From a virus, in IMG/VR virus record IMGVR_UViG_3300020404_002490, positions 1-22,547 of that record: a stretch of DNA of 22,547 nt. One strand, 5' to 3'. A program made the translations under genes and the position numbers. The notes beneath the pieces are model-generated. The model saw nothing but the letters and a program-made list of their open reading frames with translations, did no database searches and was not told the DNA's origin. Positions 1 to 22,547 of this stretch are shown piece by piece. Position 1 is the first letter of the stretch, and every line of letters begins with the position of its first letter.

Positions 1-297
1 TTTGCATTGAAAAGATATCTTGGACTTACTGAAGAGGAAATGGCAAGGAATGCTGACCTTTGGGCAGAAGAAAACAATGTGCCACAGAGAAAACAAACGA
101 AATCGAATCAATTACGTAGTGCAGGTGTAACACAATCTGGCATATCAAGTGACTTAGACCAGTTTGAGGAGCCAACAGCAGACGCAGAGGCACCAACTCC
201 GGACTCTCCACAACCAGGACAACCAGGACAAACACCAGGAGGACAGGGCGGTGGCGGCACAACTCCGGGCGGAACAGGTGGCGGAGGCCAGGTATAA
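1..297 (+). CDS. 20: Portal vertex protein, C-terminal fragment (gp20-like, partial)
   Basis: The reading frame is open from the first base, so this is the 3' end of a longer gene. The visible 98 residues begin with a charged helix-like stretch (LKRYLGLTEEEMARN) and end in a low-complexity tail rich in Pro, Gly and Gln (PQPGQPGQTPGGQGGGG and a further TTPGGTGGGGQV). Identification as the T4 gp20-type portal rests mainly on position: in T4-like phages the order is gp20, gp67, gp68, gp21, gp22, gp23, and everything downstream fits that order. The opening helix is also compatible with the end of a marine T4-like portal. The portal forms the dodecameric DNA entry ring and nucleates prohead assembly. 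The Gly/Pro tail is unusual compared with T4 gp20 and probably disordered. The upstream part cannot be seen, so another head protein is possible. Confidence 0.7.
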   Translation, partial: FALKRYLGLTEEEMARNADLWAEENNVPQRKQTKSNQLRSAGVTQSGISSDLDQFEEPTADAEAPTPDSPQPGQPGQTPGGQGGGGTTPGGTGGGGQV

Positions 298-300
298 GGA

Positions 301-308
301 TTAAATAC
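301..308 (+). promoter_or_regulatory. Putative T4-type late promoter TTAAATAC
   Basis: The octamer resembles the T4 late promoter TATAAATA. T4 late transcripts begin about six bases after its last A, which predicts a start near 313, one base before the ATG at 314. No Shine-Dalgarno sequence lies between the octamer and the ATG. Confidence 0.45.
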
Positions 309-313
309 GTAAA

Positions 314-556
314 ATGAAACTTTTTGAATTCTTTACATATGGCGCAGATGGGTTTGAGCAGGACAAAACTTACGAACCTGAAAACGACATTTCTATTTTA
401 GACGACGAAGACACAAGAAAAACCAGACTTACCCTAAAAGATATCAACTCAATGAGATTGGCGTCAGAGGCACACGACGCTCAACAGAAAGAAGAAGCCG
501 TATTTGTTCAAAAGATGTACGGCGCACCAGCACAAGACGATAACTTACAGTTATAA
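314..556 (+). CDS. Small acidic prohead protein, gp67-like by position
   Basis: An 80-residue hydrophilic, acidic protein. It begins MKLFEFFTYG, has an Asp/Glu-rich stretch (ENDISILDDEDTRKTR, about residues 23-38), then a charged helix-like part with KTRLTLKDINSMRL, and ends around VQKMYGAPAQDDNLQL. T4 gp67 (Pip), which sits directly after the portal gene, is also 80 residues and acidic and is a prohead core component later degraded by gp21. The match here is by length, charge and position; I cannot show sequence homology. The start is preceded by a TTAAATAC box and no ribosome binding site. Its stop codon shares one base with the next ATG (TAATG at 554-558), which suggests translational coupling. 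Confidence 0.6.
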   Translation: MKLFEFFTYGADGFEQDKTYEPENDISILDDEDTRKTRLTLKDINSMRLASEAHDAQQKEEAVFVQKMYGAPAQDDNLQL

Positions 557-1170
557 TGTCAAACATAGCATTCGTACTAGGCAACGGTGAATCCCGTAGG
601 GGCATAGATATCAATGATCTGAAGGAAAAAGGCACTGTGTTTGCCTGCAATGCCGTTTACAGAACACACCAACCACACTTCCTTATTGCAGTAGACCCTA
701 AAATGGTACTAGAAATCAGCGAAACAGATTACATGATTAATAATAAAGTGTGGAGTAACTTCAATTCGCAATATTCAAAAAACAAGAAAATAATGGATCA
801 TTGTAATTGGTTCAAGCCAAGTTTGGGATGGTCCAGCGGTCCAACTGCATTGAGGATGGCTTGTGATCGTGGATTTAAAGAAATATACATACTTGGATTC
901 GACTACCAGGGACACAAAGAAGGCAACAGGTTCAAACTTAACAACATGTTTGGTGATTCAAGGAACTACAAAAGGCGTAAGGACGAGGCAACCTTCTACG
1001 GAAACTGGATGAACCAGACAAAACGCATATTACAAGATTTCAAAGATGTAAAATTCCACAGAGTGATACCCCAAGGATGGTTCCTACCCAAAGATCTCGA
1101 GTGGACCAAGAACATAGAACATCCGACCACCGAAGAATTCCTCACAAAATTCAATCTACAACGAAAATAA
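556..1170 (+). CDS. Sugar-transferase-like protein (DUF115/GT42-like fold suspected)
   Basis: A 204-residue protein with features of a nucleotide-sugar-binding fold. LGNGESRRGIDINDL (residues 8-22) resembles the N-terminal GNGxS loop of GT42 sialyltransferases and of MAF/DUF115 proteins. VFACNAVYR (28-36) follows, then AVDP (45-48). GWSSGPTALRMACDRGFKEI plus YILGFD (91-116) resembles the 'SG..al..A...G.keIyl.G.D' segment of the same families. The role in the phage is unknown; glycosylation of a virion or host surface component is an inference. It overlaps the preceding gene by one base, so it appears co-translated with head genes, and it has no counterpart in T4 between gp67 and gp21. It is complete, with typical codon use for the window. 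It may be enzymatically inactive; no catalytic residue can be assigned with certainty. Confidence 0.6.
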   Translation: MSNIAFVLGNGESRRGIDINDLKEKGTVFACNAVYRTHQPHFLIAVDPKMVLEISETDYMINNKVWSNFNSQYSKNKKIMDHCNWFKPSLGWSSGPTALRMACDRGFKEIYILGFDYQGHKEGNRFKLNNMFGDSRNYKRRKDEATFYGNWMNQTKRILQDFKDVKFHRVIPQGWFLPKDLEWTKNIEHPTTEEFLTKFNLQRK

Positions 1171-1274
1171 TTACAAAATACCACTTTTTGCACCAATTAT
1201 ACCACCGTTTTTACGCCCTTTTTGTAAATACAATACACTTATAAGTACAAATCGACAATAAAGGAGCACGTGTA
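1171..1274 (+). promoter_or_regulatory. Intergenic leader with late-promoter-like boxes before the acidic core gene
   Basis: This 104-base AT-rich gap contains GTAAATAC at 1224-1231 and TATAAGTA at 1240-1247, the latter within the perfect palindrome ACTTATAAGT. Either could serve as a late promoter for the gene at 1275. A good Shine-Dalgarno, AAAGGAG, lies at about 1260-1266, so this gene is translated in the conventional way. No terminator-like hairpin is clear. Confidence 0.4.
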
Positions 1275-2225
1275 ATGTCAAATAATAAATTTGAGAGTTT
1301 ATTAGAATTACTAATAAACGAAGAAAACGACAAAGCAGAAGCACTTTTCCATGAAATCGTAGTTGAAAAATCAAGAGATATCTACGAAAATTTAGCGGAC
1401 GAAGAAGTGACTGCTGAGGCGAAAGAAGAAACAAAAGAAGAGTCTAAAGAAGAAGTTAAAGAAACTGAAGCATCTGAAGAGGAAAAAGTAGAAGAAACTA
1501 CAGAAGAATCTAAAGATGAGCAAGTTGAAGAAACTTCTGAGGAATCTAAAGACGAGCAAGTAGACGAAGTTGTAGAGTTAGAAGACGAAGCAACAGAATC
1601 AGAAACAACTGAAGAAGAATCAATCGAAGAAGTAGGCGGAGACGCAACTGACGAATTGGTTAAAGACATATCAGCAGACGAAGAAGGCGCTAAAGAAATG
1701 GATATGGACATGGACAAAGATATGGACATGGACAAAGACATGGACGGCGACAAAGGCGAAGAAGATATGGAAGACAGAGTTGTTGACTTAGAAGACGCTT
1801 TAGACGAATTAAAAGCAGAATTCGAAGCAATGATGGGCAAAAAAGACGGTGACGAAGAAGAAAAAGACGAAACTGTTGAAATGCCAGCATCAGAAACTCC
1901 AGAAATGCCAGTGGAAGGTAAAAAAGCAGACATGAAAAAAGAAAAAATGGATGAATACAAAATCCAGAAGTCTGCAGATACAGCCGACCATGCTGATCAT
2001 AAATCATCTCCAGTAACAGATGCAGGTAACAAACTACCAAAAGGTGGTAAAATTACACAAGGCGGAGCAGACGAAAAAGGAAGACCGGCTCCAACTGCAC
2101 AAAAAATGAGTGATTTTGAGAATACTCCAGGTAAAGACAAGTCTACTTCTTACAAGAAGCAAGGCAAGGCGGATACCGCGGATCATTCAGACAAATCAGC
2201 AAAATCTCCAGTTGCTAACAAGTAA
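1275..2225 (+). CDS. Highly acidic prohead core protein (gp68-like by position)
   Basis: A 316-residue protein with an ordered-looking N-terminus (about 1-45: FESLLELLINEENDKAEALF then EIVVEKSRDIYENL). A long Glu/Asp/Lys low-complexity region follows, including the near-duplicate VEETTEESKDEQ / VEETSEESKDEQ and an (MD)nKD repeat around residues 139-155. A coiled-coil-like stretch (VVDLEDALDELKAEFEAMM, about 167-186) precedes a Lys/Ser/Thr-rich tail. In T4 the small core protein gp68 (141 aa) occupies this position before gp21. The N-terminal segment and position suggest an expanded core or scaffold protein of the same role. It contains L/I-x-E triplets (LLE, IYE, IEE) of the type cut by T4 gp21. 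It may be largely digested or remain as an internal head protein. Function is inferred; low complexity makes homology searches unreliable. Confidence 0.6.
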   Translation: MSNNKFESLLELLINEENDKAEALFHEIVVEKSRDIYENLADEEVTAEAKEETKEESKEEVKETEASEEEKVEETTEESKDEQVEETSEESKDEQVDEVVELEDEATESETTEEESIEEVGGDATDELVKDISADEEGAKEMDMDMDKDMDMDKDMDGDKGEEDMEDRVVDLEDALDELKAEFEAMMGKKDGDEEEKDETVEMPASETPEMPVEGKKADMKKEKMDEYKIQKSADTADHADHKSSPVTDAGNKLPKGGKITQGGADEKGRPAPTAQKMSDFENTPGKDKSTSYKKQGKADTADHSDKSAKSPVANK

Positions 2226-2249
2226 TTGTTGATTTAGAAGGAGTTTGGA

Positions 2250-2879
2250 ATGTCAGCACTATACCTAAGGGAGAATCTAACTTTTAACGAAGCCAGAGTC
2301 CAGATCTTACACGAGAACGACGGAAAAGATTTGTACATGAAAGGCATCTGTATTCAAGGTGGGATTAAGAATGCTAATCAAAGGGTTTATCCAGTGTCAG
2401 AAATTGCGAAAGCAACGAAAACACTGAATGATCAGATTAGTTCAGGGTACTCTGTGTTAGGTGAAGTCGACCATCCAGATGATTTAAAAATTAATTTGGA
2501 CCGAGTGTCTCACATGATTACTGAAATGTGGATGGACGGTCCAAATGGATATGGCAAAATGAAAATTTTGCCGACACCAATGGGTCAACTTGTCAAAACT
2601 ATGTTGGAATCGGGTGTGAAACTAGGCGTATCGTCAAGAGGAAGTGGTAACATTTCCGAATACGGTAGCGGTGAAGTTTCAGATTTCGAGATCATCACAG
2701 TTGATGTTGTGGCCCAGCCTTCGGCACCGGGTGCTTATCCTACGCCAATTTACGAACACCTAATGAATACCAAGGGTGGTAACATGGCAAAAGGACTGGC
2801 CGCTGAAGTTAGAAATGACCCTAAAGCACAAAGGTATCTAAAAGATGCCCTAACAAACATAATAAAGGACCTAAAATAA
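2250..2879 (+). CDS. 21: Prohead core scaffold protease gp21
   Basis: A 209-residue serine protease, close to T4 gp21 (212 aa), peptidase family S80. It digests the internal scaffold and trims the capsid proteins during head maturation. GEVDHP at residues 71-76 carries the expected catalytic His75, and GVSSRGSG at 126-133 carries the expected nucleophile (Ser128 or Ser129). DFEIITVDVVAQPSAPGAY follows at about 145-163, as in this family. The start is set by a strong AGAAGGAG ribosome binding site 6-13 bases upstream. Its stop overlaps the gp22 start by one base (TAATG at 2877-2881). Position between a core protein and gp22/gp23 matches T4 order exactly. The precise assignment of the nucleophile is inference; the family call is secure. 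Confidence 0.93.
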   Translation: MSALYLRENLTFNEARVQILHENDGKDLYMKGICIQGGIKNANQRVYPVSEIAKATKTLNDQISSGYSVLGEVDHPDDLKINLDRVSHMITEMWMDGPNGYGKMKILPTPMGQLVKTMLESGVKLGVSSRGSGNISEYGSGEVSDFEIITVDVVAQPSAPGAYPTPIYEHLMNTKGGNMAKGLAAEVRNDPKAQRYLKDALTNIIKDLK

Positions 2880-3943
2880 TGATTGATGCAATATCAAAAC
2901 TTGTTGAATCAGGAGCAATTTCAGAAGATGTGCAAAAAAGCATCCAAGAGGCTTGGGATTCAAAAATCAAGGAAAACAGAGAAACTGTTGGTGCTGAATT
3001 AAGAGAAGAGTTCGCAAAAAGATACGAACACGACAAGTCTAACATGATCGAAGCGATCGACAAGATGATGACTGAGAAGTTATCTGAAGAGATCACGAAG
3101 TTCGTTGAAGACAGAAAAGCACTAGCACAGGAAAAAATATCCTACAAAGAAAACGTAGGCAAACATTCTGCTAAATTAGAATCATTTATTCTTTCTAAAT
3201 TATCAGAAGAACTAAAAGAGTTACACAGTGACCGAAAAGGTGTTCATGAAAACTTTAAGAAAATGGAAGAGTTCGTAGTAAACGCTCTTGCAAAAGAAAT
3301 TAAAGAGTTCCATGAAGACAAAAAAGGCGTTGTGGAAACGAAAGTCAAACTAGTAGCCGAAGCCAAAAAACAAATGGCTAAGATGAAAGAGGCTTTCATA
3401 ACAAGATCTGCTAAAGTTGTAGAATCTGCTGTAAACAAAAAACTTGCTGAAGAGTTAAAATCTCTGAAGGAAGACATCACAGCGGCAAGAGAAGTCAACT
3501 TTGGTAAGAAAATATTCGAGGCGTTCGCTTCTGAGTACCAGAATTCTTACTTAAATGAGAAATCTGAGACTGCGAAGTTAATGAAAGTTGTGGATGAAAC
3601 CACTCTTAAATTAAAAGACGCCGAGAAAGCCGTCGAAGATAAACAAGCGGTGATTGAGTCCAAAGAGGCGGAAGCCAAAAGACAAGCGGACTTGATGGAA
3701 CGCAAGGAAAAGATGGCTGAGATGCTCAAACCATTGGGCAAAGAAAAGAGTGAAGTAATGGGTCAACTGTTAGAATCAGTTCAAACAGCGAAACTTCAGG
3801 CTTCATTCGACAAGTATCTACCACACGTGATGGCTGACAAACCAGTTGCAGAACAGAAACAAGTTATTTCTGAAGCGGCAGGTGACAGAGCACAAAGGGA
3901 AGATGCTGACTTAACAAATATCCGTAAATTAGCGGGTATATAA
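2879..3943 (+). CDS. 22: Major prohead scaffolding core protein gp22
   Basis: A 354-residue, almost wholly helical and highly charged protein that should form the scaffold around which gp23 assembles and then be degraded by gp21. It is longer than T4 gp22 (269 aa). Four imperfect helical repeats are visible: KLSEEITKFVEDRKAL (67-82), KLSEELKELHSDRKGV (107-122), ALAKEIKEFHEDKKGV (136-151) and KLAEELKSLKEDITA (188-202). A long coiled coil covers about 230-300. Possible gp21 cut sites of the L/I-x-E type include LLE near 297-299 and ISE near 330-332. It is translationally coupled to gp21 by a one-base overlap. The call rests on position, composition and length. Confidence 0.88.
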   Translation: MIDAISKLVESGAISEDVQKSIQEAWDSKIKENRETVGAELREEFAKRYEHDKSNMIEAIDKMMTEKLSEEITKFVEDRKALAQEKISYKENVGKHSAKLESFILSKLSEELKELHSDRKGVHENFKKMEEFVVNALAKEIKEFHEDKKGVVETKVKLVAEAKKQMAKMKEAFITRSAKVVESAVNKKLAEELKSLKEDITAAREVNFGKKIFEAFASEYQNSYLNEKSETAKLMKVVDETTLKLKDAEKAVEDKQAVIESKEAEAKRQADLMERKEKMAEMLKPLGKEKSEVMGQLLESVQTAKLQASFDKYLPHVMADKPVAEQKQVISEAAGDRAQREDADLTNIRKLAGI

Positions 3944-3967
3944 CAATAACTAAGGGGAAAGATACAA

Positions 3968-5140
3968 ATGTCAGATATATTTGAATCAAAATGGGGCGAA
4001 ACTAAACAGGCCCTAACCGAAGGTTTAACAGGCAACAAAAAGAAGACTATGGACGTTGTGTTAGAAAACACAAAAAGATACTTGTCTGAGGCTTCAACTG
4101 CTGGTGCAACTAGTGCCGGTAACGTTGCAACGTTAAACAGGGTTATCCTACCAGTAATCAGAAGGGTTATGCCAACTGTGATCGCTAACGAGATCGTAGG
4201 TGTACAACCAATGACTGGTCCTGTAGGACAAATCCACACATTAAGAATAAGATATGCAGACACAGTTGCGTCAAACACGACTGCAGGTGAAGAAGCATTA
4301 TCTCCATTCAAAATTGCGAAAGCATACTCTGGTAACCAGAACAACTCTACTCCAAAAGGTGCATCAACTGCCTCTTTAGAGGGAACACCTGGTAAGAGAT
4401 TATCAATCCAGATCTTGAAACAACCCGTTGAAGCGAAATCTAGAAAATTAAGTGCTAGATGGACATTTGAAGCGGCTCAAGATGCTCAAGCACAGCAAGG
4501 TATCGATGTAGAAGCAGAAATCATGGCGGCATTAGCTCAAGAGATTACTGCAGAAATCGACCAAGAGATCATTGGATCATTAAGAACATTGGCAGGAAGT
4601 GCTAGTGAAACTTTTGACCAAGCGGCTGTGTCAGGTACTGCAACATTCGTTGGTGATGAACACGCGGCTTTGGCTGTGTTAATCAACAGAGTTGCTAACC
4701 AAATCGCAACAAGAACAAGAAGAGGCGCTGGAAACTACGCGGTAGTATCTCCAACTGCTTTAACTATTCTTCAATCAGCAACAACTTCAGCATTTGCAAG
4801 ATCAACTGAAGGTACATTCGAAGCACCTACTAACACAAAATTTGTTGGTACATTAAATGGTGCAATGAGAGTATACACTGACGCTTACGCTTCAGATGGT
4901 ACTTCAGTACTTGTAGGTTACAAAGGTGCAAGTGAGGCAGACGCTCCAGCGTTCTATTGTCCTTACATTCCTTTAATGTCTTCAGGTGTTGTGTTAGATC
5001 CATCTACTTTCGAACCGGTAGTAGGCTTCTTAACTAGATATGGTTATGTAGAGTTAACAAACACTGCATCATCTCTAGGTAACGCGGCTGACTACGTTGG
5101 ATTAGTAGCGGTAACATCTGGAAACTTAAAATTCAAGTAA
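3968..5140 (+). CDS. 23: Major capsid protein gp23
   Basis: A 390-residue major capsid protein of the T4 gp23 family (HK97 fold). Diagnostic segments are VILPVIRRVMPTVIANEIVG followed by VQPMTGPVGQ (about residues 59-88), SARWTFEAAQDAQAQQGID (about 159-177) and a C-terminal region with FLTRYGYVEL. A maturation site of the L-x-E type, YLSE|ASTAG, is predicted after Glu41; T4 gp23 is cut after Glu65. The mature form would be about 349 residues, well below T4 gp23 (521 precursor), suggesting that the gp23 insertion domain is reduced or absent. The ribosome binding site AAGGGGAAAG precedes the ATG. A strong terminator follows 25 bases after the stop. No gp24-like vertex gene follows in this window. 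Confidence 0.96.
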   Translation: MSDIFESKWGETKQALTEGLTGNKKKTMDVVLENTKRYLSEASTAGATSAGNVATLNRVILPVIRRVMPTVIANEIVGVQPMTGPVGQIHTLRIRYADTVASNTTAGEEALSPFKIAKAYSGNQNNSTPKGASTASLEGTPGKRLSIQILKQPVEAKSRKLSARWTFEAAQDAQAQQGIDVEAEIMAALAQEITAEIDQEIIGSLRTLAGSASETFDQAAVSGTATFVGDEHAALAVLINRVANQIATRTRRGAGNYAVVSPTALTILQSATTSAFARSTEGTFEAPTNTKFVGTLNGAMRVYTDAYASDGTSVLVGYKGASEADAPAFYCPYIPLMSSGVVLDPSTFEPVVGFLTRYGYVELTNTASSLGNAADYVGLVAVTSGNLKFK

Positions 5141-5165
5141 GCCAAGGCTTATTTTATTTTCAAAG

Positions 5166-5192
5166 AAAGGCGGCTTTATGTCGCCTTTTTTT
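5166..5192 (+). terminator. Intrinsic terminator after gp23
   Basis: AAAGGCGGC (5166-5174) pairs with GTCGCCTTT (5180-5188) around a TTTAT loop, with one G-U pair, followed by a run of seven T (5186-5192). It closes the head block. Its stem is nearly the same as that of the terminator at 13929-13960. Confidence 0.9.
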
Positions 5193-5198
5193 GTGACT

Positions 5199-5341
5199 GT
5201 ACTTTAAAAAGTACACACATATAAAATTTTTTTCACCTTCATACTATTCGCAGACCAAATGTTGTAGTTTTACTTTTGTGTAGGACTTCTAAATAATTCT
5301 AAGTTTCATTAGAAACTTTTCAACATCAAGGGAGGTCCAAC
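5199..5341 (+). promoter_or_regulatory. Leader region of the small membrane protein gene with two inverted repeats
   Basis: After the gp23 terminator there is an inverted repeat GTACTTT-AA-AAAGTAC (5199-5214), a weak late-promoter-like CTAAATAA near 5290, and a hairpin AAGTTTC-ATTA-GAAACTT (5301-5318). A good ribosome binding site GGGAGGT lies just before the ATG at 5342. Whether the hairpin acts on RNA stability or translation cannot be told. Nothing else is seen here. Confidence 0.4.
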
Positions 5342-5575
5342 ATGGATATCATGATGAAAATAAAAGGATGGGCAAAAGGAATTGCTGATGTCGGTGTGAG
5401 TTTAATCGCATTAGGAATTGTTTTAGAAATCCTTTTCAATGGTCAAGGTATTCCGTTCTGGCCACAAGTTTCCGTAATTGGAAATGTACAGAGCGTACTG
5501 CAAGGGTTTTCAGATCAAGGTTTGATCGGACTAGTAGCAGTTTGGATTTTATATCATATCTACAACAGAAAATAA
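5342..5575 (+). CDS. Small two-helix membrane protein of unknown function
   Basis: A 77-residue protein with two predicted membrane segments: about residues 15-33 (GVSLIALGIVLEILF) and 59-74 (GLIGLVAVWILYHIY). They are separated by a polar and aromatic loop with GIPFWPQVS. A short amphipathic, basic N-terminus (MDIMMKIKGWAKGIADV) and a basic end (NRK) are present. The size and layout recall small phage membrane proteins such as holins, but nothing here proves that role, and its place directly after the capsid gene is not a lysis cassette. It sits alone between two terminators with a strong ribosome binding site (GGGAGG), so it looks like a well-expressed single-gene unit. It could be a virion-linked membrane protein. 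I do not recognise the family with certainty. Confidence 0.75.
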   Translation: MDIMMKIKGWAKGIADVGVSLIALGIVLEILFNGQGIPFWPQVSVIGNVQSVLQGFSDQGLIGLVAVWILYHIYNRK

Positions 5576-5603
5576 TATAAAAATCTAGAAATACGATAAC
5601 CTC

Positions 5604-5650
5604 AAGGGTGGTGTGATTAATTTATGGATTGTATTGCACCACCCTTTTTT
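5604..5650 (+). terminator. Intrinsic terminator after the small membrane protein gene
   Basis: AAGGGTGGTG (5604-5613) pairs perfectly with CACCACCCTT (5637-5646). Four further pairs (TGAT with ATTG, including wobbles) are possible inside, and T5645-5650 forms the U-tract. The loop is long (about 15-23 nt). Confidence 0.85.
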
Positions 5651-5678
5651 CTTTGTACTTTATTGTTTTAAAATTTTG

Positions 5679-5686
5679 GTAAATAC
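5679..5686 (+). promoter_or_regulatory. Putative late promoter GTAAATAC
   Basis: The octamer is T4-late-like and lies just after a terminator. A start near 5691 would give a leader of about 97 bases that contains the four hairpins before the gene at 5788. Confidence 0.5.
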
Positions 5687-5690
5687 TATC

Positions 5691-6219: not shown

Positions 6220-6235
6220 TAACGCACACGTGCTT

Positions 6236-6275: not shown

Positions 6276-6282
6276 CTAGCAA

Positions 6283-7542: not shown

Positions 7543-7545
7543 TAG

Positions 7546-8001: not shown

Positions 8002-8451
8002 ATGGCATTTAGAAAACTAGTAGGATCTTACAAAGATTACAATCTATCAACCCACGTACTAGAAGACGGTTATCTTGCCGTTGATGTGGACAGCGGAAGT
8101 TTAAGATTAGGTGACGGATCTACTGCAGGCGGAATAGCAATATCTACAGGCAGTGGCGGAGGAGGCGGCGGTGCCGCAACAAGTCTTGGTGACTTATCTG
8201 CTACAGGTTCTACACTTTCAGCGCCTACCAATGCTGACTTAACTTTAGCAGTAGCAGGGACAGGTAGTATAGTATTGACAGGAATAACTTTTCCAAATAC
8301 AGACGGCTCGAACACACAGGTACTTGCAACAAACGGATCTGGAGTGTTAAGTTTTGTTGATCCCGTTAGCACAAATAATATCGACGGTGGCACTGCAGAT
8401 TCTGTATTTGATTCATCATTAACAACAATCGACGGAGGCACTGCCGCATAA
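8002..8451 (+). CDS. Short fibre-like protein B (149 aa)
   Basis: A 149-residue protein. The first 48 residues (MAFRKLVGSYKDYNLSTHVL, then VDSGSLRLGDGSTAGG) look like a short form of the N-terminal domain seen in phage receptor-binding proteins (the Mtd_N type, with a GDGsTaGG turn). A glycine linker GSGGGGGG follows at about 51-58. One fibre repeat comes next (GSTLSAPTNADLTLAVAGTG and NTQVLATNGSGVLSFVD), then a C-terminal NNIDGGTADSVF / TTIDGGTAA motif. Part of the same repeat occurs three times in the next gene. A strong AAGGAG ribosome binding site precedes it, and its stop shares a base with the next start (TAATG at 8449-8453). It may be a small partner or adaptor of the following fibre protein. 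Confidence 0.65.
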   Translation: MAFRKLVGSYKDYNLSTHVLEDGYLAVDVDSGSLRLGDGSTAGGIAISTGSGGGGGGAATSLGDLSATGSTLSAPTNADLTLAVAGTGSIVLTGITFPNTDGSNTQVLATNGSGVLSFVDPVSTNNIDGGTADSVFDSSLTTIDGGTAA

Positions 8452-9587
8452 TGCCAACTAAAATACAATTAAGACGAGACACGGCGGCGGACTGGGCAAG
8501 TAACAATCCAACATTGTCCGCAGGAGAATTTGGTTGGGAGTCGGATACTAATAGATTCAAAATTGGTACAGGGTCAACAGCATGGAACAGTCTTGATTAT
8601 TCTGACACCCTTAAAACTTTAGGTGACCTAGGAGTTACCGGTTCAACTATATCGGCTCCGTCTAATGGAGATTTAACTCTTACAACATCTGGTTCGGGTA
8701 AGGTCAACATATCTAATGCATACACTCTTCCGTCTTCAGACGGTAGTGCAAATCAAGTTCTGCAAACTAATGGATCTGGAGTTTTATCTTTCGGCACTGT
8801 CTCTGTAGGAGATTTTTCTTTTGTAGGATCAACCATGAGCTCGCCGTCAAACGCAGATATTACACTATCGCCAAGCGGTTCAGGCAAAGTAAACATAAGC
8901 GGAGCATATACCTTACCGTCCTCGGATGGAAGCGCCAACCAAGTTCTTCAGACAGATGGTGCAGGTAATCTTTCGTTTGGTACTGTTTCAATTGGTGATC
9001 TGTCAATAGTTGGATCAACAATTGGTTCACCTAGTAATGCTGATCTTACATTAACATCAAGCGGTGGTAACGTAGTAATTGAAGGAATCAGAGTAGCAGG
9101 TACAACAATATCAACAGAAGACTCCAGTGCTGGAGTGCAGGTAGCAGGTAACTTAATACCAAGTGCAGATGGAGTTTTTCAGTTAGGTTCATCATCAAGA
9201 AGATGGTCAACAGCATTTCTTTCTGCAGAGACATTAGACATTGGTGGTGCAACTATTTCATCGGATGGAACAGGTAGTATTGCTATTGCGGCCACAGGTG
9301 CAACACTTCCAACAGGAAGTAAAGTTGTCGACCAGGCAATAGTTCTTGGTGGTAAAACAGACAAAACTACCGCTAGACCGGTACAAATTGTAAAGGTATT
9401 TGTCAGTGACGGAAGTAGCAATTTTACCGATGCACAATTACTTGCCAAAACAGCAGATTTAGAACTAGAATTCAACGGCACTGTTGAGACTGTTCCAGTA
9501 TACACAGAAGCAAGTCAAACTTTTACACTCGCAGACGGCACATCATTATCAAATAATGCCGCTGGTATAACACTATTTCAATTTTAA
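8451..9587 (+). CDS. Fibre-like protein C with Mtd_N-type N-terminal domain (378 aa)
   Basis: The N-terminus (MPTKIQLRRDTAADWASNNP, LSAGEFGWESDTNRFKIG, GSTAWNSL, residues 1-48) matches the N-terminal domain of major tropism determinant-like receptor-binding proteins. About three tandem repeats of roughly 57 residues follow, built from VGST(I/M)xSPSNAD(L/I)TLxxSGSGKVNIS, then YTLPSSDGSANQVLQTxGxG and LSFGTVSxGD. After them comes DGVFQLGSSSRRWSTAFLSA and a C-terminal domain of about 100 residues with VVDQAIVLGGKTDKTTARPV. The two best copies of YTLPSSDGSANQVLQT use different synonymous codons, so the duplication is not recent. The role is probably host contact or fibre shaft; this is inference from domain type. 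It overlaps the preceding gene by one base. Confidence 0.75.
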   Translation: MPTKIQLRRDTAADWASNNPTLSAGEFGWESDTNRFKIGTGSTAWNSLDYSDTLKTLGDLGVTGSTISAPSNGDLTLTTSGSGKVNISNAYTLPSSDGSANQVLQTNGSGVLSFGTVSVGDFSFVGSTMSSPSNADITLSPSGSGKVNISGAYTLPSSDGSANQVLQTDGAGNLSFGTVSIGDLSIVGSTIGSPSNADLTLTSSGGNVVIEGIRVAGTTISTEDSSAGVQVAGNLIPSADGVFQLGSSSRRWSTAFLSAETLDIGGATISSDGTGSIAIAATGATLPTGSKVVDQAIVLGGKTDKTTARPVQIVKVFVSDGSSNFTDAQLLAKTADLELEFNGTVETVPVYTEASQTFTLADGTSLSNNAAGITLFQF

Positions 9588-14387: not shown

Positions 14388-14392
14388 AACGT

Positions 14393-15857: not shown

Positions 15858-17026
15858 TAATTGTCAGCCTTTGGTTTAAGTGCGTTTTCTAACGACTGTC
15901 TTTGGTCTACTGTTAATCCATTTATCGTATCTGTTGATGTGTTATTAACAAATCCGGTTTTTTGTGTTGACCTAGTGTCAGTATTAGAATGCGTTATTCT
16001 TACAGAGTCTTCTACCTTGACCCATCTGTTGCCATCGTAACGGAACAATCTGTTTGGTAGGAAGTCTGTTCTTAAAAAATAGTCGCCTTGATCAACATTT
16101 GAATTAGGAAAACTAATGCCAAAGCCTGCTGGGTTTCCGTTTGGCGCTACTCCATCACCATCGAGATAGAATCCATAATGAGAACTTGCAGGAGTATCGA
16201 TTGTAGCGTTTACAGTCTTGTCCATGCTTACTCGTTGGTCCTCGGTGTTTACATTATCAGTCCTGATGTTGCCACGTTCGTCTATAGGTGCAACATAGTA
16301 CTGTTTGTAGTTGAAACCTGCTTTTGGCGAATCTGCTTCTGCCTGTGCTAGAACTTGATCCGAAATAGTTTTTTCTCTGTTGAAAGTTGACATATAACTT
16401 GCAAGAGAATTTTCTGTGGTTGCATCTCCCAAAATATCTCTGTATTCCTGTGAATCTACCAAAGACTTTAATTTTAGTCTTAGTAAATGCGGCCACCATG
16501 TTGCCGAAAATCCTTCAGCCGCTCTGTTTACGTCCTCTACAACATAGTATCTTTTCAATGCTATTGGAATAGTTTCATCCAATGAGTAATCTTCTTTCAT
16601 GTGAGGAAATTCTATTACATCGCCACTCATAGGCTTCCTGCCCAATCTTTCAACAGAATCATTCAAATGCACGGTCAAAAATAGTGTGTCATTTTGTAAG
16701 AACATACCAAACTGACTTAGATTAAAATCAACGTCTTGAACGTTATAAATCCCCCTGATTGTATAGATATCTGAATCGTATTTCCTGTCTCGATTTTCTA
16801 AAAAGAGTAAATCTTGAATGGTCCTTTCATTTAAACTATCGCCCGAATACTGTGGTTGAGTTGGACTAGCATCACCGTCCTTGTTTGTTTCCCCCTGATC
16901 GTAAGGACCTAGGTATTTGTGGAAATGTAGATCAGTGCCACCTACCGTAAACATCTCCTTGATGTTACGATCGAAGAACTTATAGTCACTGCCCTTTTCA
17001 GGCTTGAAAATGGATAATCTTGGCAT
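15857..17026 (-). CDS. 14: Neck protein gp14 with C-terminal module
   Basis: Read from MPRLSIF (17026) it has 389 residues; an ATG nine bases upstream is less likely because it overlaps the promoter box. The core, about 1-200, contains LNERTIQDLLFLENRDRKYD, YTIRGIYNVQDVDFNLSQFG, SGDVIEFPHM, ALKRYYVVEDVNRAAEGFSA and TWWPHLLRLKLKSLVDSQEY. This is the pattern I know from neck proteins of marine T4-like phages annotated gp14. T4 gp14 is 256 aa. Gp14 with gp13 closes the filled head and forms the neck onto which the tail docks. The C-terminal part (about 280-345) has HYGFYLDGDGVAPNGNP and QGDYFLRTDFLPNRLFRYDG plus NRWVKVED, a module shared in style with gp15 and gp18. It is transcribed divergently from gp13. 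Confidence 0.83.
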   Translation of the reverse strand: MPRLSIFKPEKGSDYKFFDRNIKEMFTVGGTDLHFHKYLGPYDQGETNKDGDASPTQPQYSGDSLNERTIQDLLFLENRDRKYDSDIYTIRGIYNVQDVDFNLSQFGMFLQNDTLFLTVHLNDSVERLGRKPMSGDVIEFPHMKEDYSLDETIPIALKRYYVVEDVNRAAEGFSATWWPHLLRLKLKSLVDSQEYRDILGDATTENSLASYMSTFNREKTISDQVLAQAEADSPKAGFNYKQYYVAPIDERGNIRTDNVNTEDQRVSMDKTVNATIDTPASSHYGFYLDGDGVAPNGNPAGFGISFPNSNVDQGDYFLRTDFLPNRLFRYDGNRWVKVEDSVRITHSNTDTRSTQKTGFVNNTSTDTINGLTVDQRQSLENALKPKADN

Positions 17027-17029
17027 ATC

Positions 17030-17069
17030 ACACATATTTATTGTGCAGGCAACGGCTATAAATATGTGT
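17030..17069. repeat. Inverted repeat holding back-to-back late promoters
   Basis: ACACATATTTAT (17030-17041) and ATAAATATGTGT (17058-17069) are perfect 12-base inverted repeats 16 bases apart. Each carries a late-promoter octamer: AATAAATA on the minus strand (17042-17035) and TATAAATA on the plus strand (17057-17064). They drive gp14 and gp13 outwards, and predicted starts fall at 17029 (three bases before the gp14 ATG) and 17070 (the gp13 ATG itself). Confidence 0.75.
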
Positions 17070-17831
17070 ATGTCAGAACTGCAAACAGGTCAACAAGAAA
17101 TATTCGATTACGTTAAAAATAACCTTGGTGAGGGAATGATCGACGTAGAGCTCGATCCCAAACACTATCAAACGGCTCTTACAAGGGCAATCGATAGATA
17201 CAGACAGCGTAGTTCAAATGCAGTCGAAGAATCCTACGCTTTTTTAACTTTGAAGAAAAATCAAAATTCATACATCTTGCCAAATGAAATAATCAATGTG
17301 AGAAACCTTAACAGAAGAACTGTTGGATCCAGGACAGAAGGCGGTGAAGGTGGTACACTTTTCGAACCATTCAATTTGGCATACACAAATACCTATCTCC
17401 TAAGGGCAGGTGCAACAGGTGGATTGGCAACTTACTACGCTTTTGCAAGTTATCAAGAGTTGGTTGGAAAAATGTTTGGAAGTTTCATACAATTCCACTT
17501 TGATGTAGCAACTAAAAAACTTACAATCACGCAAAGACCTAGGGCAGATGATGAAACAATATTGATGCATACAGATAATTTTAGACCAGACATAACATTA
17601 TTCAAAGACATCTATGCAAAACCCTGGATCAGAGATTACACACTTGCAGTTTCCAAAGTTATGTTGGGCGAAGCAAGAGGCAAGTTTACGCAGATAGCAG
17701 GACCACAAGGTGGCACAACACTTAACGGTGCTGAACTGAAACAGCAAGGACTTGCTGAAATGGAAAGACTAGATAACGAAATTGGCAACTTTGCCGAAGG
17801 TGGAACTCCACACAGTTTTGTTATTGGTTAA
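17070..17831 (+). CDS. 13: Neck protein gp13
   Basis: A 253-residue protein starting MSELQTGQQEIFDYVKNNLG. The longer frame back to 17004 is rejected because it runs through the promoter and into the gp14 coding start. Characteristic parts are HYQTALTRAIDRYRQRSSNA (helical, about 32-51), EESYAFLTLKKNQNSYILPN, GGTLFEPFNLAYTNTYLL, GGLATYYAFASYQELVGKMF, WIRDYTLAVSKVMLGEARGK and AGPQGGTTLNGAELKQQGLA. I know this pattern from the neck protein annotated gp13 in marine T4-like phages (T4 gp13 is 309 aa). It acts with gp14 to complete the neck and allow tail joining. No Shine-Dalgarno precedes it; the TATAAATA box ends six bases before the ATG, so the transcript may be leaderless. Confidence 0.83.
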   Translation: MSELQTGQQEIFDYVKNNLGEGMIDVELDPKHYQTALTRAIDRYRQRSSNAVEESYAFLTLKKNQNSYILPNEIINVRNLNRRTVGSRTEGGEGGTLFEPFNLAYTNTYLLRAGATGGLATYYAFASYQELVGKMFGSFIQFHFDVATKKLTITQRPRADDETILMHTDNFRPDITLFKDIYAKPWIRDYTLAVSKVMLGEARGKFTQIAGPQGGTTLNGAELKQQGLAEMERLDNEIGNFAEGGTPHSFVIG

Positions 17832-17847
17832 TAACCTACAAACAGCA

Positions 17848-17855
17848 TTTAAATA
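17848..17855 (+). promoter_or_regulatory. Putative late promoter TTTAAATA
   Basis: A weaker late-type octamer whose expected start, near 17861, lies three bases before the ATG at 17864. No ribosome binding site of the usual kind lies upstream (AAAAGAG is at best partial). Confidence 0.35.
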
Positions 17856-17863
17856 AAAGAGTC

Positions 17864-18046
17864 ATGACAGACTCCAATTATAAAAAATATTCTGACCTAA
17901 CACTAGAAGAGTTAGAAGATGTAGTGCAAGACATAGAAAATATGAGTCTTGCGGCCTTGAAGCAACAAAAGAAAGATCTCAGAATTACCATGTTAAAGAC
18001 TGTGCAAGAGGCTAAGAAAGAGATTGAAAAACGATTGAAAAAATAG
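17864..18046 (+). CDS. Small helical protein of unknown function (60 aa)
   Basis: A 60-residue charged protein, MTDSNYKKYSDLTLEELEDV and onward, ending in AKKEIEKRLKK. It is predicted to be two helices or one helical hairpin with heptad-like Leu/Ile spacing, so probably a coiled coil; there is no membrane segment and no Cys. It lies between gp13 and the dNMP kinase gene, and the sigma70-type promoter of the kinase gene begins inside its last codons. Codon use looks like the rest of the window and the frame is clean, which supports a real gene, but I recognise no family. It could be a small assembly or regulatory partner. Confidence 0.55.
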   Translation: MTDSNYKKYSDLTLEELEDVVQDIENMSLAALKQQKKDLRITMLKTVQEAKKEIEKRLKK

Positions 18047-18052
18047 TATAAT
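18024..18052 (+). promoter_or_regulatory. Sigma70-type promoter for the dNMP kinase gene
   Basis: TTGAAA (18024-18029), a 17-base spacer and a perfect TATAAT (18047-18052) are seen. The usual start seven bases later is position 18059, exactly the A of the kinase ATG. The -35 box and most of the spacer lie inside the preceding 60-aa gene. Confidence 0.7.
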
Positions 18053-18058
18053 AACACT

Positions 18059-18694
18059 ATGTTGATAGGCGTAGTAGGATTAATAGGTTCCGGAAAAGGC
18101 ACTGTTGCGGATAGGCTGGAACAGAAACACGGATTTCGAAAAGATTCATTTGCTAAAAGCCTTAAGGATGCCGTAAGTTTCATGTTCAATTGGGACAGGG
18201 AAATGCTTGAAGGCAAGACAGAATCAAGCAGGCACTGGAGAGAACAACCTGACAAGTTTTGGAGTGACAAATTTGGAAAGCCGGTAACGCCAAGATGGGT
18301 GATGCAATATTTCGGGACAGAAGTAATGCGTGGACAAATGCTTGATACAATCTGGATAGACAGTTGTCTAATGAGATACAACGGTACTCCAACTGTAATA
18401 GCAGATACCAGGTTCAAGAATGAACTGAAAATGATACAAAAATCAGGTGGCAAACTTATACTTGTAAAACGTGGCGAACTGCCAAGTGTAGAAGAAATGC
18501 AACAAAAAGGTGCTCATAAATCCGAGTGGGATTGGATGGGTTGGAACTTTGATTACACTATTGAAAACGACGGTACTAAAGAAGAGTTATATGCAAAAGT
18601 CGACGACTTAATCGTCAGCAACAAGATCGCCTACACGCCATCCCAATCTACGGATAGCACCCAACCTTTGGCAATTGGCGCAAACAGTTTTTAG
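18059..18694 (+). CDS. 1: Deoxynucleoside monophosphate kinase (T4 gp1-like)
   Basis: A 211-residue P-loop kinase. GLIGSGKGT at residues 7-15 is the phosphate-binding loop. DSFAKSLKDAVSFMF follows at about 31-45, PRWVMQYFGTEVMRGQML with DTIWIDSCL at about 80-107, and a TVIADTRFKNE segment at about 112-122. T4 gp1 (241 aa) has the corresponding order: P-loop, 'K-DA', 'RRLMQALGTDL', 'W', 'PDTR.. E'. The family phosphorylates dNMPs (in T4 dGMP, dTMP and hm-dCMP) to dNDPs, feeding DNA synthesis. Which bases this one accepts cannot be told. It has its own strong sigma70-type promoter with the predicted start on the ATG. Its last 28 codons overlap the minus-strand gene at 18608-18967. Confidence 0.85.
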   Translation: MLIGVVGLIGSGKGTVADRLEQKHGFRKDSFAKSLKDAVSFMFNWDREMLEGKTESSRHWREQPDKFWSDKFGKPVTPRWVMQYFGTEVMRGQMLDTIWIDSCLMRYNGTPTVIADTRFKNELKMIQKSGGKLILVKRGELPSVEEMQQKGAHKSEWDWMGWNFDYTIENDGTKEELYAKVDDLIVSNKIAYTPSQSTDSTQPLAIGANSF

Positions 18695-18967
18695 ATTAGT
18701 TTCAGCGACATTTCTTAAATTTCCATCTACAAAAAAGACGTCCAATTGGCTAGTGTGCTGTGCTTTGAAGCCACATAACTCACATTTCCTACGCTTTTTG
18801 TAGCCTGACCTTTGAAGAGGAGTGACGCCTCCTATCTTCTTGCCAGCATTTTTCCTTATGCATGAATCACATTTACTACGCCAATATATCTTGTCATTCC
18901 GCTTGTAGGCATATGCCCGTGGCCTTGTCTTACAGTTCTTGCACAAAGGTCTGCTAATATGTCGCAT
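18608..18967 (-). CDS. HNH-like zinc-binding protein, catalytic His apparently missing
   Basis: Read from MRHISRPLCK (18967) it has 119 residues and four CxxC pairs: Cys9/12, Cys33/36, Cys62/65 and Cys96/99. The last two pairs frame a treble-clef region, KCELCGFKAQHTSQLDVFFV then DGNLRN and NLKTVCANCQ. This resembles the HNH endonucleases common in T4-like phages ('..C..CGF....SQL.V.H.DGN..N....NLKTVC.NC'), but Phe-Phe-Val stands where the catalytic His usually precedes DGN, so nuclease activity is doubtful. An in-frame extension up to 19162 is rejected since it would run through the gp18 start. GTAAATA ends six bases before the ATG. The 3' end overlaps the dNMP kinase gene by 87 bases in antisense. 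It may be a decayed free-standing homing endonuclease or a DNA/RNA-binding zinc protein. Confidence 0.65.
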   Translation of the reverse strand: MRHISRPLCKNCKTRPRAYAYKRNDKIYWRSKCDSCIRKNAGKKIGGVTPLQRSGYKKRRKCELCGFKAQHTSQLDVFFVDGNLRNVAETNLKTVCANCQRLGAIRRLGWRVGDLVADD

Positions 18968-18972
18968 GTTGC

Positions 18973-18979
18973 TATTTAC
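18973..18979 (-). promoter_or_regulatory. Putative late promoter GTAAATA for the HNH-like gene
   Basis: The box lies on the minus strand. Its last A (18973) is six bases before the ATG at 18967, so the T4-late rule predicts a transcript beginning at the start codon. The match is partial (G for T at the first base). Confidence 0.35.
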
Positions 18980-19036
18980 GTCACCTATATAGGTACCTCG
19001 AAAATGGTAAATTATGTCAACAAAACCGTATGATTG

Positions 19037-19044
19037 AATAAATA
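19037..19044 (+). promoter_or_regulatory. Putative late promoter AATAAATA for gp18
   Basis: A late-type octamer in the divergent gap between the HNH-like gene and gp18. The expected start near 19050 gives a 34-base leader with a good AAGGAG ribosome binding site (19068-19073). Confidence 0.5.
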
Positions 19045-19083
19045 ACTCTAGTATATACGTAACTTGCAAGGAGAATACGAAAA

Positions 19084-22000
19084 ATGGCTTTAACATCACC
19101 AGGAGTAGAGGTTTCAGTAATAAACGAAAGTTTCTACGTACCATCAGATGCGGGTACAACACCTTTATTCATAGTAGCATCATCACAAGACAAACAGAAT
19201 GGCGCAGGGTCAGGCACAGCGGCAGGAACACAAAGTTCAAATGCCAATACAGCATACTTGATCTCATCGCAAAGAGAATTAACAGAGACTTTTGGAGATC
19301 CAAAATTCTACACAGACGCATCAGGAAATTCATTAAATGGATATGAATTAAATGAATATGGATTACAAGCGGCGTACTCGTTCCTTGGAGTTGCCAACAG
19401 AGCGTTTGTATTAAGAGCAAACATAAACACTTCAGAATTAGTAGGAAGTGCATCGGCTCCTACAGCAGACCCATCAGATGGAACATACTGGTTAGACCTT
19501 GCATCAAGCAGTTATGGAATATTTGAGTGGTCACAAGCAAATCAAAAATTCACTGCTAAGACACCAACTTTAATTACTAGCGTTGGTGACCTAGTAGGCG
19601 CAGTATCAACAGGTGCTCCAAAAACATCAGTTGGTTCTATTGGTGATTACGCAATCAACACAACACACGTTTCAAACAAGATTTACAAAAAAACTGCAAG
19701 TAACACATGGGCACAATTAGGATCACTTGCATGGCACAATTCACTACCAGTAGTGACAGTGGCATCAGGCACAACAGTTTCAAGCGGTAACACTTTTGTA
19801 ATAAACGGAATAACAATTACACCAGGTGGCACAGCATTATCAGATGTTGCAACAGCAATTGGTTCAAGTGTTGTAAACGTTTCAGCAAGTGTAAACGCAA
19901 CAACAGGTAACCTAGAAATATTCCACAATGGTCTATTAACAGGTGACAGTACATCAGGTGCTAACACAATTAGATTTGAAGAAGGTAACGGTGTATTAGC
20001 AGAATTAGGAATAACAGCAGGTGTTAAAAACGGTGCTAAATTCTTACAAGCGGCGCACACTTCTAGACCAACTTGGAAAACAGCAGACGAAGATAGACCT
20101 AACGGATCAGTTTGGTTCAAAACTACAAGTGCCAACTCTGGTGCTAACATCATTGCAAAACTTTACAGTTCTGCAAGTGCTAGTTTCTCAACAGTAGCGT
20201 CACCATTACATGCTACACATCACAGTGCAATCTTTAATTTAGATGCCGCTGGCGGTGGAGCAAATTTATCAGTTGGAGCACTTTATACACAATTCAACAT
20301 CACTGAACAGTCATTGTCAAGTGGTGCTGACGCAACTACAAATGTTGGTGACTTCCAATTATTCAGATACGAAGGTGGCACAACAGTTATTTCATCTAAA
20401 ACTACAAGTCCAAGTTTCACACACAACGAAACTTTCACTGTAAGAGAATCACTTAAAAATCAAGAAGCATTGGACACTGCAAAAACAGTCACAATACAAT
20501 CTGGTGATGGTTCAACATTAGCAGACGCTGATGATTTTGTTACGGCTTTCACAGCGGCAAACTTCACAAACTTGACAGCAGAAATAATTGCTACAGGTGA
20601 ACACGCAGGTGCAATCAGAATAACACATGCACTAGGCGGTGAGTTTAGAATGAACAACACATCAGGTACACCACTTGATGACGCAGGCTTTGGAACGTCA
20701 AATGCACACGCATATGGCACATTCACTGCAAACAGTTCAACATTAATTGACAACTTATATGTTACTCCAACAGGCGAATCTGAGGACTCAACAGTTGGTA
20801 ACGAAGTAATGGCAAGTAACTGGAAGAGATTAAGTTACACTGCTTCTGTAAATGCTCCTACAAATGAGCCAGCAGACGGCACACTATGGTACGACACAAA
20901 CACAGATGTTGCGGACATCATGGTGCATAATGGAACAACTTTCAAAGGTTACCTACAAGTTTACGCTACAACAGATCCAGCAGGTCCACAGTTCAGTGCA
21001 ACAGCACCAACTACACAGTCAGATGGTACTGCACTTGTGAACAACGACTTATGGATTGACACTAGCGACCTAGAAAACTATCCAAAACTTTACAAATACA
21101 ACACAGCGGCAACGTTGAGTTCAACTAACACAAACAACCAGGTTGCTGTTACTACAACAGGTGCGGCTTGGGAATTAGTTGACAAATCAGACCAAACAAC
21201 AGAAGACGGTATTGTGTTTGCGGATGCTAGGTTCCACACTTCAGCAGACAAGCAGGCAGGAACATCAACAGCGGCGGGTACTGCATCATCAATCAAAGAC
21301 TTATTGAGTGATGACTTCCTAGATCCAGATGCTCCAAATCCTTCATTGTTTCCAAATGGTATACTTTTATGGAACACAAGAAGAAGTGGTTTCAATGTAA
21401 AAGAATACAAAAACAGTTACATCACAACAACAAAATATCCTGGATCAGGTTCGTCAGGACTTGGTAACGTGAGATTCAGCAACGAATCAGTTGCATCTTA
21501 CTACCCAGACAGATGGGTTACTAAATCAGGCAACAATGCTGACGGTTCTGGAACATTTGGCAGAAAAGCACAGAGAAAAGTTATTGTTGAGCAACTTAAA
21601 TCTGAGATAGACACTAACCAAGCAATCAGAGAAGACCAAAGAGGTTACAATGTAATTGCTTGTCCTGGATACCCAGAATTAATAGCAAACATGATTAACC
21701 TAAACACAGATAGAAACAACACAGCGTTCATCTTGGGAGACACACCTTTCAGATTAGAAGGAACAGCAACTTCTATACAGAACTGGGCTAACAACACAGC
21801 AGGTGCAAGTGACAACGGTGAAGACGGTTTAGTAAGCGGAAGCGATTACTTGGGCGTGTTCTACCCGTCAGGTCAAACAACTGACAACACAGGCAAGTCA
21901 ATCGTTGTTCCACCATCACACATGATGTTGAGAGTATTAGCAAACAATGATAATGTTGCTTTCCCATGGTTCGCACCAGCAGGTACTAGAAGAGGTGTTG

Positions 22001-22506
22001 TTGACAACGCAACAGCAGTTGGATACATTGAAGCAAGTACAGGTGAGTTTGAAACTATTTCTGTAACAGAATCAGTTAGAGACTCAATGCACGAAGTTAA
22101 AGTAAATCCAATTACGTTCTTCTCAGGTTCAGGAATAGTAAACTTTGGAAACTTAACAAAAGTTTCAGGAAGTTCAGCACTAGACAGAATAAACGTATCA
22201 AGATTAGCAGTATATCTAAGAACACAATTAGATGCCATTGCTAAACCGTTTATCTTTGAACCAAATGATCAACTTACAAGAAATGAAATTAAACAAGCAG
22301 TTGAATCATTCTTGTTAGAACTTGTTGGTCAAAGAGCACTATTTGACTTCCTAGTAGTTTGTGACGAAACAAACAACACTGCTACAAGGATTGACAGAAA
22401 CGAACTGTATGTAGACATAGCAATTGAGCCAATCAAATCAGTTGAATTCATTTACATACCGTTGAGAATTAAAAACACAGGAGAAATTGCAAAGTTAGGG
22501 AACTAA
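19084..22506 (+). CDS. 18: Tail sheath protein gp18, much enlarged
   Basis: A 1140-residue sheath protein. The conserved start is MALTSPGVEVSVINESFYVP. The conserved C-terminal 400 residues include FPNGILLWNTRRSGFNVKEY (about 755), VASYYPDRWVTKSG, FPWFAPAGTRRGVVDNA and RTQLDAIAKPFIFEPNDQLT. VESFLLELVGQRALFDFLVV follows, and the end has VEFIYIPLRIKNTGEIAKLG. T4 gp18 has 659 residues. The extra length lies at about 120-720 as a chain of small domains: five 'P-x-DGTxW-D ... W/F' modules near 123, 177, 328, 588 and 641, and two flagellin-like 'V-SG-T-S-GN-F-INGI-I' type domains near 226 and 469. The sheath polymer contracts to drive the tube into the host; the insertions would decorate its outside. 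The AAGGAG site sets the start. Confidence 0.95.
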   Translation: MALTSPGVEVSVINESFYVPSDAGTTPLFIVASSQDKQNGAGSGTAAGTQSSNANTAYLISSQRELTETFGDPKFYTDASGNSLNGYELNEYGLQAAYSFLGVANRAFVLRANINTSELVGSASAPTADPSDGTYWLDLASSSYGIFEWSQANQKFTAKTPTLITSVGDLVGAVSTGAPKTSVGSIGDYAINTTHVSNKIYKKTASNTWAQLGSLAWHNSLPVVTVASGTTVSSGNTFVINGITITPGGTALSDVATAIGSSVVNVSASVNATTGNLEIFHNGLLTGDSTSGANTIRFEEGNGVLAELGITAGVKNGAKFLQAAHTSRPTWKTADEDRPNGSVWFKTTSANSGANIIAKLYSSASASFSTVASPLHATHHSAIFNLDAAGGGANLSVGALYTQFNITEQSLSSGADATTNVGDFQLFRYEGGTTVISSKTTSPSFTHNETFTVRESLKNQEALDTAKTVTIQSGDGSTLADADDFVTAFTAANFTNLTAEIIATGEHAGAIRITHALGGEFRMNNTSGTPLDDAGFGTSNAHAYGTFTANSSTLIDNLYVTPTGESEDSTVGNEVMASNWKRLSYTASVNAPTNEPADGTLWYDTNTDVADIMVHNGTTFKGYLQVYATTDPAGPQFSATAPTTQSDGTALVNNDLWIDTSDLENYPKLYKYNTAATLSSTNTNNQVAVTTTGAAWELVDKSDQTTEDGIVFADARFHTSADKQAGTSTAAGTASSIKDLLSDDFLDPDAPNPSLFPNGILLWNTRRSGFNVKEYKNSYITTTKYPGSGSSGLGNVRFSNESVASYYPDRWVTKSGNNADGSGTFGRKAQRKVIVEQLKSEIDTNQAIREDQRGYNVIACPGYPELIANMINLNTDRNNTAFILGDTPFRLEGTATSIQNWANNTAGASDNGEDGLVSGSDYLGVFYPSGQTTDNTGKSIVVPPSHMMLRVLANNDNVAFPWFAPAGTRRGVVDNATAVGYIEASTGEFETISVTESVRDSMHEVKVNPITFFSGSGIVNFGNLTKVSGSSALDRINVSRLAVYLRTQLDAIAKPFIFEPNDQLTRNEIKQAVESFLLELVGQRALFDFLVVCDETNNTATRIDRNELYVDIAIEPIKSVEFIYIPLRIKNTGEIAKLGN

Positions 22507-22511
22507 TTTTG

Positions 22512-22519
22512 AATAAATA
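22512..22519 (+). promoter_or_regulatory. Late-promoter-like AATAAATA before the next gene
   Basis: The octamer overlaps the ribosome binding site AGGAG (22519-22523). If transcription began six bases after it (22525), the ribosome binding site would be lost from that transcript, so it may be only a spacer sequence with the gene read from the gp18 mRNA. Confidence 0.3.
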
Positions 22520-22529
22520 GGAGAAACAG

Positions 22530-22547
22530 ATGGCAATATCAACTTTA
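22530..22547 (+). CDS. 19: Start of the next gene, probably tail tube gp19 (partial)
   Basis: Only six codons (MAISTL) are inside the window, with the ribosome binding site AGGAG seven bases before the ATG. In T4-like phages gp19, the tail tube protein, directly follows gp18, so the call is by position. The remainder is outside the window. Confidence 0.5.

Follow-up and report, generated by a model that had tools for sequence, protein, structure and literature searches.

The 22,547-base virus fragment analysed here (hereafter the window) contains neither GCAGC nor GCTGC, and this total absence of GCWGC belongs to a wider exclusion of DNA words. It is highly probable that the pattern arose from repeated, host-specific selection by type II restriction, which the phage lineage escaped through elimination of the sites. 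The first-pass annotation of this DNA had reported the missing GCWGC; the observation is true but incomplete, since at least five words are excluded from the window, GCWGC being one of them, and the depletion of AGCT is equally strong.

The window is a whole record, with no further genome sequence in it. Its source is a T4-like jumbo phage, as judged from gp21, gp23 and the tail sheath; genes for a prohead protease, gp23, a tail sheath and a NUDIX protein are all present (table 1). The gene preceding gp23 matches a protein family of no named function, and its probable assignment as a gp22-like scaffold follows the gene order of 121Q. Among cultured phages, Sinorhizobium phage Phosso has the closest gp23 (73%), followed by Vibrio phage 2.275.O, Pseudomonas PA5oct and the GAP32/121Q group. 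This gene was used as the marker for the tree and for finding relatives, which amounted to 80 viral contigs with a related gp23. No near-identical records were found in the phage collection.

Table 1. Genes and surviving AGCT sites of the window.
Feature	Position	Strand	Remarks
Prohead protease gene (gp21-like)	2250..2879	+	PHROG 207, E 1e-57
Probable gp22-like scaffold gene, precedes gp23	2879..3943	+	PHROG 10922, E 8e-80; TAAREV at 3479 (gcggca)
Major head protein gene gp23	3968..5137	+	PHROG 138, E 4e-100; NAADYV at 5081 (gcggct)
Gene of unknown function	8002..8451	+	no PHROG match; GAATSL at 8170 (gccgca)
Tail sheath gene	19084..22506	+	PHROG 10581, E 4e-216
Surviving AGCT 1	4534..4537		5' G flank on one or both sides
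Surviving AGCT 2	8838..8841		5' G flank on one or both sides
Surviving AGCT 3	17149..17152		5' G flank on one or both sides

GCAGC and GCTGC were each counted 0 times in the window, GCGGC 37 times and GCCGC 13 times. Shuffling of synonymous codons over all window genes (500 replicates) gave an expectation of 33.9 ± 3.2 GCWGC with a minimum of 24, and shuffling of codons within genes (1000 replicates) gave 32.6 ± 3.2 with a minimum of 21. The absence is spread evenly over the three thirds of the window. On the other side, GCSGC occurs 50 times versus 18–20 expected in codon shuffles, an excess which is the footprint of the synonymous replacement of GCWGC. The codon-preserving comparison of the two words, proposed in the first-pass annotation as a check, thus came out in its favor (GCWGC 0 vs. 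about 33, GCSGC 50 vs. about 20).

The genetic code allows every GCWGC to be removed synonymously, in all three frames. About 40 Ala-Ala pairs had been said to begin with GCG or GCC, and this applies to all 41 pairs of the window (GCG 30, GCC 11), with Ala codons overall being mostly GCA or GCT (GCA 337, GCT 126, GCG 80, GCC 69). The three cited examples are present, with GAATSL placed at 8170 instead of 8161. At columns with identical protein residues, the GCWGC of relatives corresponds mostly to GCGGC or GCCGC in the window. The claim that the avoidance acts on the DNA word, independently of gene and strand, is therefore borne out by the shuffles, the Ala-Ala codons, the compensating GCSGC, the homologous sites and the close relatives that do not avoid the word.

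Besides GCWGC, several words are purged from the window. In their notation H is any base except G and D any base except C, so that HGCD denotes a GC outside any GGC or GCC. AGCT was observed 3 times versus 67 expected in codon shuffles, and HGCGCD (0/9 observed/expected), HGCDHGCD (0/7) and the gapped word HGCD-N5-HGCD (0/26) are all at zero. Elimination in the sense of Rusinov et al. (2018; PMC6286503), defined as an observed/expected ratio below 0.1 with more than 15 sites expected, is found in the window for GCWGC (0/33), AGCT and HGCD-N5-HGCD.

The surviving AGCT sites depend on their flanks. Without a 5' G flank none remains in the window (0/48), with a one-sided flank the ratio is 1/17, and with flanks on both sides (GAGCTC) 2/1.4. 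The respective values are 0/51, 10/25 and 5/1.5 in the related contig G001, and 0/57, 5/22 and 3/2.5 in the related contig G003. This graded survival suggests that what selection sees is the rate of cleavage.

The longest close relative (G002, 196,581 bases, possibly incomplete) has a gp23 of 95% identity and about 77% DNA identity to the window over 20.7 kb. In codon shuffles of this contig, the observed/expected counts were 0/212 for GCWGC, 0/440 for AGCT and 0/114 for RCATGY, all three again within the elimination limits given above, 0/50 for RCTWAGY, 0/47 for AGCCC, 0/42 for HGCGCD and 0/37 for HGCDHGCD. HGCD-N5-HGCD was observed twice versus 157 expected. When palindromic, degenerate and short non-palindromic words were searched greedily, the order of selection was AGCT, GCWGC, RCATGY, RCTWAGY, AGCCC and HGCGCD. 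The comparison with relatives proposed in the first-pass annotation thus gives no GCWGC over this whole contig, and normal counts in other lineages of the same family. Two further non-palindromic words, AACGCT (5/42) and AGCGTA (4/28), are strongly depleted in G002 and are assigned to no named motif.

Pairs of HGCD in G002 are gone at GC-GC spacings of 2 and 7, they are near expectation at spacings 4–6 and 8–12, and at spacing 3 they stand at 26/42. At spacing 7, two survivors in total were found among the half-site combinations without GGC or GCC. The combinations containing GGC or GCC are raised, and for this reason the plain GCN7GC is unchanged (251/256). In a scan of gapped words, whose long list of matches was dominated by AGCT, GC-N7-GC was among the matches listed the sole pattern not explained by AGCT, GCWGC or RCATGY.

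A common flank rule covers part of these words. A neighboring GGC or GCC exempts GCGC, GCNNGC and GCN7GC words, and AGCT is exempted by 5' G flanks (GAGCT) in the clade of the window. GCWGC has no exempting flank, as GGCWGC is at 0/41 in G002. The purged words with a common HGCD half-site have GC-GC spacings of 0, 2 and 7; W being the overlap of D and H, GCWGC fits the inner HGCD rule at spacing 1. Either related enzymes share the half-site and the flank preference, or GGC is modified in the phage DNA. It is conceivable, but on balance doubtful, that an undescribed family of host nucleases reads paired HGCD half-sites at enzyme-specific spacings, its specificity and flank effects being recorded in phage genomes.

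The exclusion changes among relatives. On the gp23 tree (87 rows, of which 27 avoid GCWGC fully or partly and 60 do not), the minimum number of state changes was at least 16 for GCWGC, at least 9 for AGCT and at least 11 for HGCGCD, as read from one gene by a quick method, with many open forks, possible recombination, few expected sites in short loci and thresholds of our own setting. For instance, L006 is placed within the focal clade, yet its GCWGC is at expectation (17/16). L010 has 30/28, and its tree neighbors L011 and L013 have 4/24 and 18/79, respectively. L066 and L074, relatives from one sample, are both normal for GCWGC. Among the non-avoiding relatives, GCWGC is at 460/397 in G013 and 467/451 in G014, and all of the excluded words are normal in G013, which lies outside the clade. 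Avoidance of GCWGC, AGCT and HGCGCD varies separately, and some relatives lack other subsets of the words. The loss is thus specific to lineages and is not a composition of the whole family, in which CTTA, CATG and RCGCGY show mild biases.

Two separate observations were made in the same comparison. RCGCGY is absent or nearly so in G013 (0/43), G016 and G017, without avoidance of GCWGC, and a wider avoidance of RCGCGY is possible. G017 (L137-L140, 79 kb) also has GCGC at 0/67 with GCWGC at 136/132, a separate purge of a single word.

The pattern is repeated in jumbo-phage contigs of metagenome-assembled genomes (MAGs). The GTDB bin Rickettsiales bacterium MED657 (G024), a marine MAG, includes a 54-kb contig with a gp23 of 88% identity and the same fingerprint of missing words. 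Eleven contigs of this bin, each with at least six G002 homologues at differing E-value limits (C1, C2, C6, C10, C13, C19, C21, C22, C24, C26 and C29), sum to 357 kb of phage sequence. In these, observed/expected counts were 0/328 for GCWGC, 0/764 for AGCT, 0/234 for HGCD-N5-HGCD, 0/125 for HGCGCD and 0/84 for RCTWAGY, followed by 3/203 for RCATGY, 5/146 for AGCCC and 5/96 for HGCDHGCD. With four more low-word contigs, grouped partly by the word pattern itself, the set reaches 449 kb and GCWGC 0/406. The presence of more than 350 kb of jumbo-phage contigs in a species-representative bin is probably due to contamination or to a phage of that bacterium.

Subsets of these words are missing from two further MAG phages. 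G025 C57 (335,231 bases) has GCWGC at 35/450 and HGCGCD at 0/151, with other words near normal. G026 C3 (108 kb) has GCWGC at 0/101, HGCGCD at 0/50 and HGCD-N5-HGCD at 15/83, with the rest much nearer to normal. In the MAG phages each remaining GCGC sits within GGCGC or GCGCC. G025 C57 and C77 (153 kb), from the same MAG, both carry jumbo-phage gp23 genes of equal score and are therefore probably duplicate assemblies of one phage.

Repeated selection by type II restriction predicts an exclusion of just this kind, one that is total and synonymous, acts at the level of words, affects several of them and is specific to lineages. Total exclusion at the genome scale, synonymous replacement, several independently varying words and turnover among relatives were all observed; from them we infer host restriction as the selecting force, and the enzymes that took part. 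The missing words would be recognition sites of type II enzymes in past or present hosts. Synonymous changes would remove these sites until the genome-wide count is zero, turning GCWGC into GCGGC or GCCGC and the Ala codons GCA and GCT into GCG and GCC. Each lineage's own portfolio of lost words would then correspond to the restriction repertoire met by that lineage, and with a change of host, words would be lost and regained. We take GCWGC to be of the TseI/ApeKI type, AGCT of the AluI type and RCATGY of the NspI type, and GCGC, GCNNGC and GCN7GC presumably to be HhaI-, Cac8I- and MwoI-like sites with a flank requirement. To our knowledge, HGCGCD, HGCDHGCD and HGCD-N5-HGCD as written match no known specificity. 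Selection by a host restriction system, as the first-pass annotation had suggested, stands as the best explanation, but the effect is wider than GCWGC and no matching host enzyme was identified; in addition, part of the word set follows a flank rule that would not be expected from a simple TseI-type specificity.

The search for a cognate enzyme gave none of matching specificity in any host. The bacterial contigs of MED657, co-binned with the phage contigs of the best relative, have normal counts for every word tested, which speaks against the restriction reading, though avoidance is not required of a host that has a methyltransferase. Co-binning is itself weak evidence of infection. The same bacterial contigs have two clusters of paired m5C methyltransferases. 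In the one (L163:2467-3959, minus strand), two adjoining ORFs match the two parts of the PADLOC REase_II model PDLC03402, which marks them as one gene, split or frameshifted, with two m5C methyltransferases next to it. At the center of the second is a 464-aa protein in which an HNH-like motif was read by eye and to which no library gave a name. An M.HhaI-like specificity was considered for a MAG methyltransferase; its catalytic part matches and its target-recognition part aligns poorly, so no specificity is claimed. A photosystem gene, considered as a sign of a cyanobacterial host, and the tRNAs did not account for the loss of words.

Self-protection might have purged the phage genomes if the phages themselves encoded a restriction system, or nucleases, to cleave these words in the DNA of hosts or competitors; this reading seems very unlikely. 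G002 does have nuclease-like genes, namely a TnsA-like endonuclease N-terminal domain, a SegE GIY-YIG, an HNH and an SNase, but at least six different words would require six enzymes. Non-avoiding relatives have homologues of the genes that yielded the TnsA-like, GIY-YIG and HNH candidates, and the SNase, although among the G002 genes without such homologues, is of the staphylococcal type, whose nucleases are not word-specific. No phage C5 (PF00145, 24 records) or N4/N6 (PF01555, 14 records) DNA methyltransferase was found in these partly fragmentary records, nor, among the matches listed for the part of the G002 genes scanned, an avoider-specific restriction system in Pfam. G002 also has many metabolic genes that lack a homologue in the compared relatives, among them those for Cu/Zn superoxide dismutase, DnaJ, Cpn10, peptide deformylase, UvdE, IMP dehydrogenase, a DegT aminotransferase and a Vut_1 transporter.

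The HGCD flank rule could also reflect a protective base modification at GGC/GCC (e.g., 7-deazaguanine), with selection against unmodified GC only, which we hold to be improbable. The exemption of GCGC, GCNNGC and GCN7GC by any GGC or GCC agrees with it, G002 carries GTP cyclohydrolase I as well as the transporter gene, and phage CAjan has a DpdA whose targets are GA and GGC (Kot et al. 2020, cited in PMC8306585). Nevertheless, GGCWGC is unprotected, the exempting flank of AGCT is GAGCT rather than GGC, GTP cyclohydrolase is also present in non-avoiders, and 14 records gave no match to a TGT-type protein (PF01702) or QueC (PF06508), a search that could miss a distant DpdA. The gene searches thus speak against the known 7-deazaguanine route, another modification may be involved, and restriction would still be needed as the selecting force. 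That the words became rare through a bias in mutation or in codon pairs, or through an artefact of assembly or of the library, has a negligible probability. The mild family-wide biases are in its favor, but the exclusion is absolute and flank-dependent, affects GC-GC spacing 7 and not 4–6 or 8–12, is compensated by GCSGC, and switches between close relatives such as L006 inside the clade; moreover, L066 and L074 of one sample and the MAG bacterial contigs are normal.

Host restriction is thus the preferred reading, and if it is indeed responsible, neither modified bases nor a nucleus gives these jumbo phages full protection, and restriction reaches their DNA. Most descriptions of site loss concern a single word or a few. 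Here, by summed expectations, the 197-kb contig G002 lacks about 1,100 sites of eight words and the 357 kb of MED657 phage about 2,000. The set of missing words could record the restriction repertoire of uncultured hosts, including flank preferences, and it changes fast enough for close relatives to be compared.

The loss of sites is well established as a way for phages to escape restriction (PMC6286503; phage K, PMC6532042). Rusinov et al. (2018; PMC6286503) describe elimination of orthodox type II sites, GCWGC among them, in non-temperate dsDNA phages, found in 7.5% of phage-site pairs; the passages of their text consulted make no mention of jumbo phages, multi-word purges or flank-dependent words, and no paper joining restriction site avoidance with jumbo phages was found in the library searched. 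Enzymes reading GCWGC or D-degenerate GC words do exist, that is, the methyltransferases M.AbaBS3I (GCWGC), listed without a restriction-modification system, and M.BatI (GCDGC), a prophage orphan enzyme (PMC6329791, PMC8936443), and no link of either to the phage of the window was found. In the cultured phages GAP32, 121Q and XaC1 of the same family (L145, L146 and L144), GCGC is gone (0 of 26–36 expected, in 50 kb of each), but unlike in the window lineage it is lost in all contexts including GGCGCC, with GCWGC and AGCT near normal. Phage K (PMC6532042) resembles the window lineage in that a type II word is wholly lost from the genome of a large lytic phage; it differs in having one word and a known host enzyme, whereas the window lineage has lost at least six words, over up to hundreds of kilobases and with turnover. 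The strategy of site loss is therefore already known, and what is new is its jumbo-phage scale, the number of words and a flank rule unmatched to a known enzyme.
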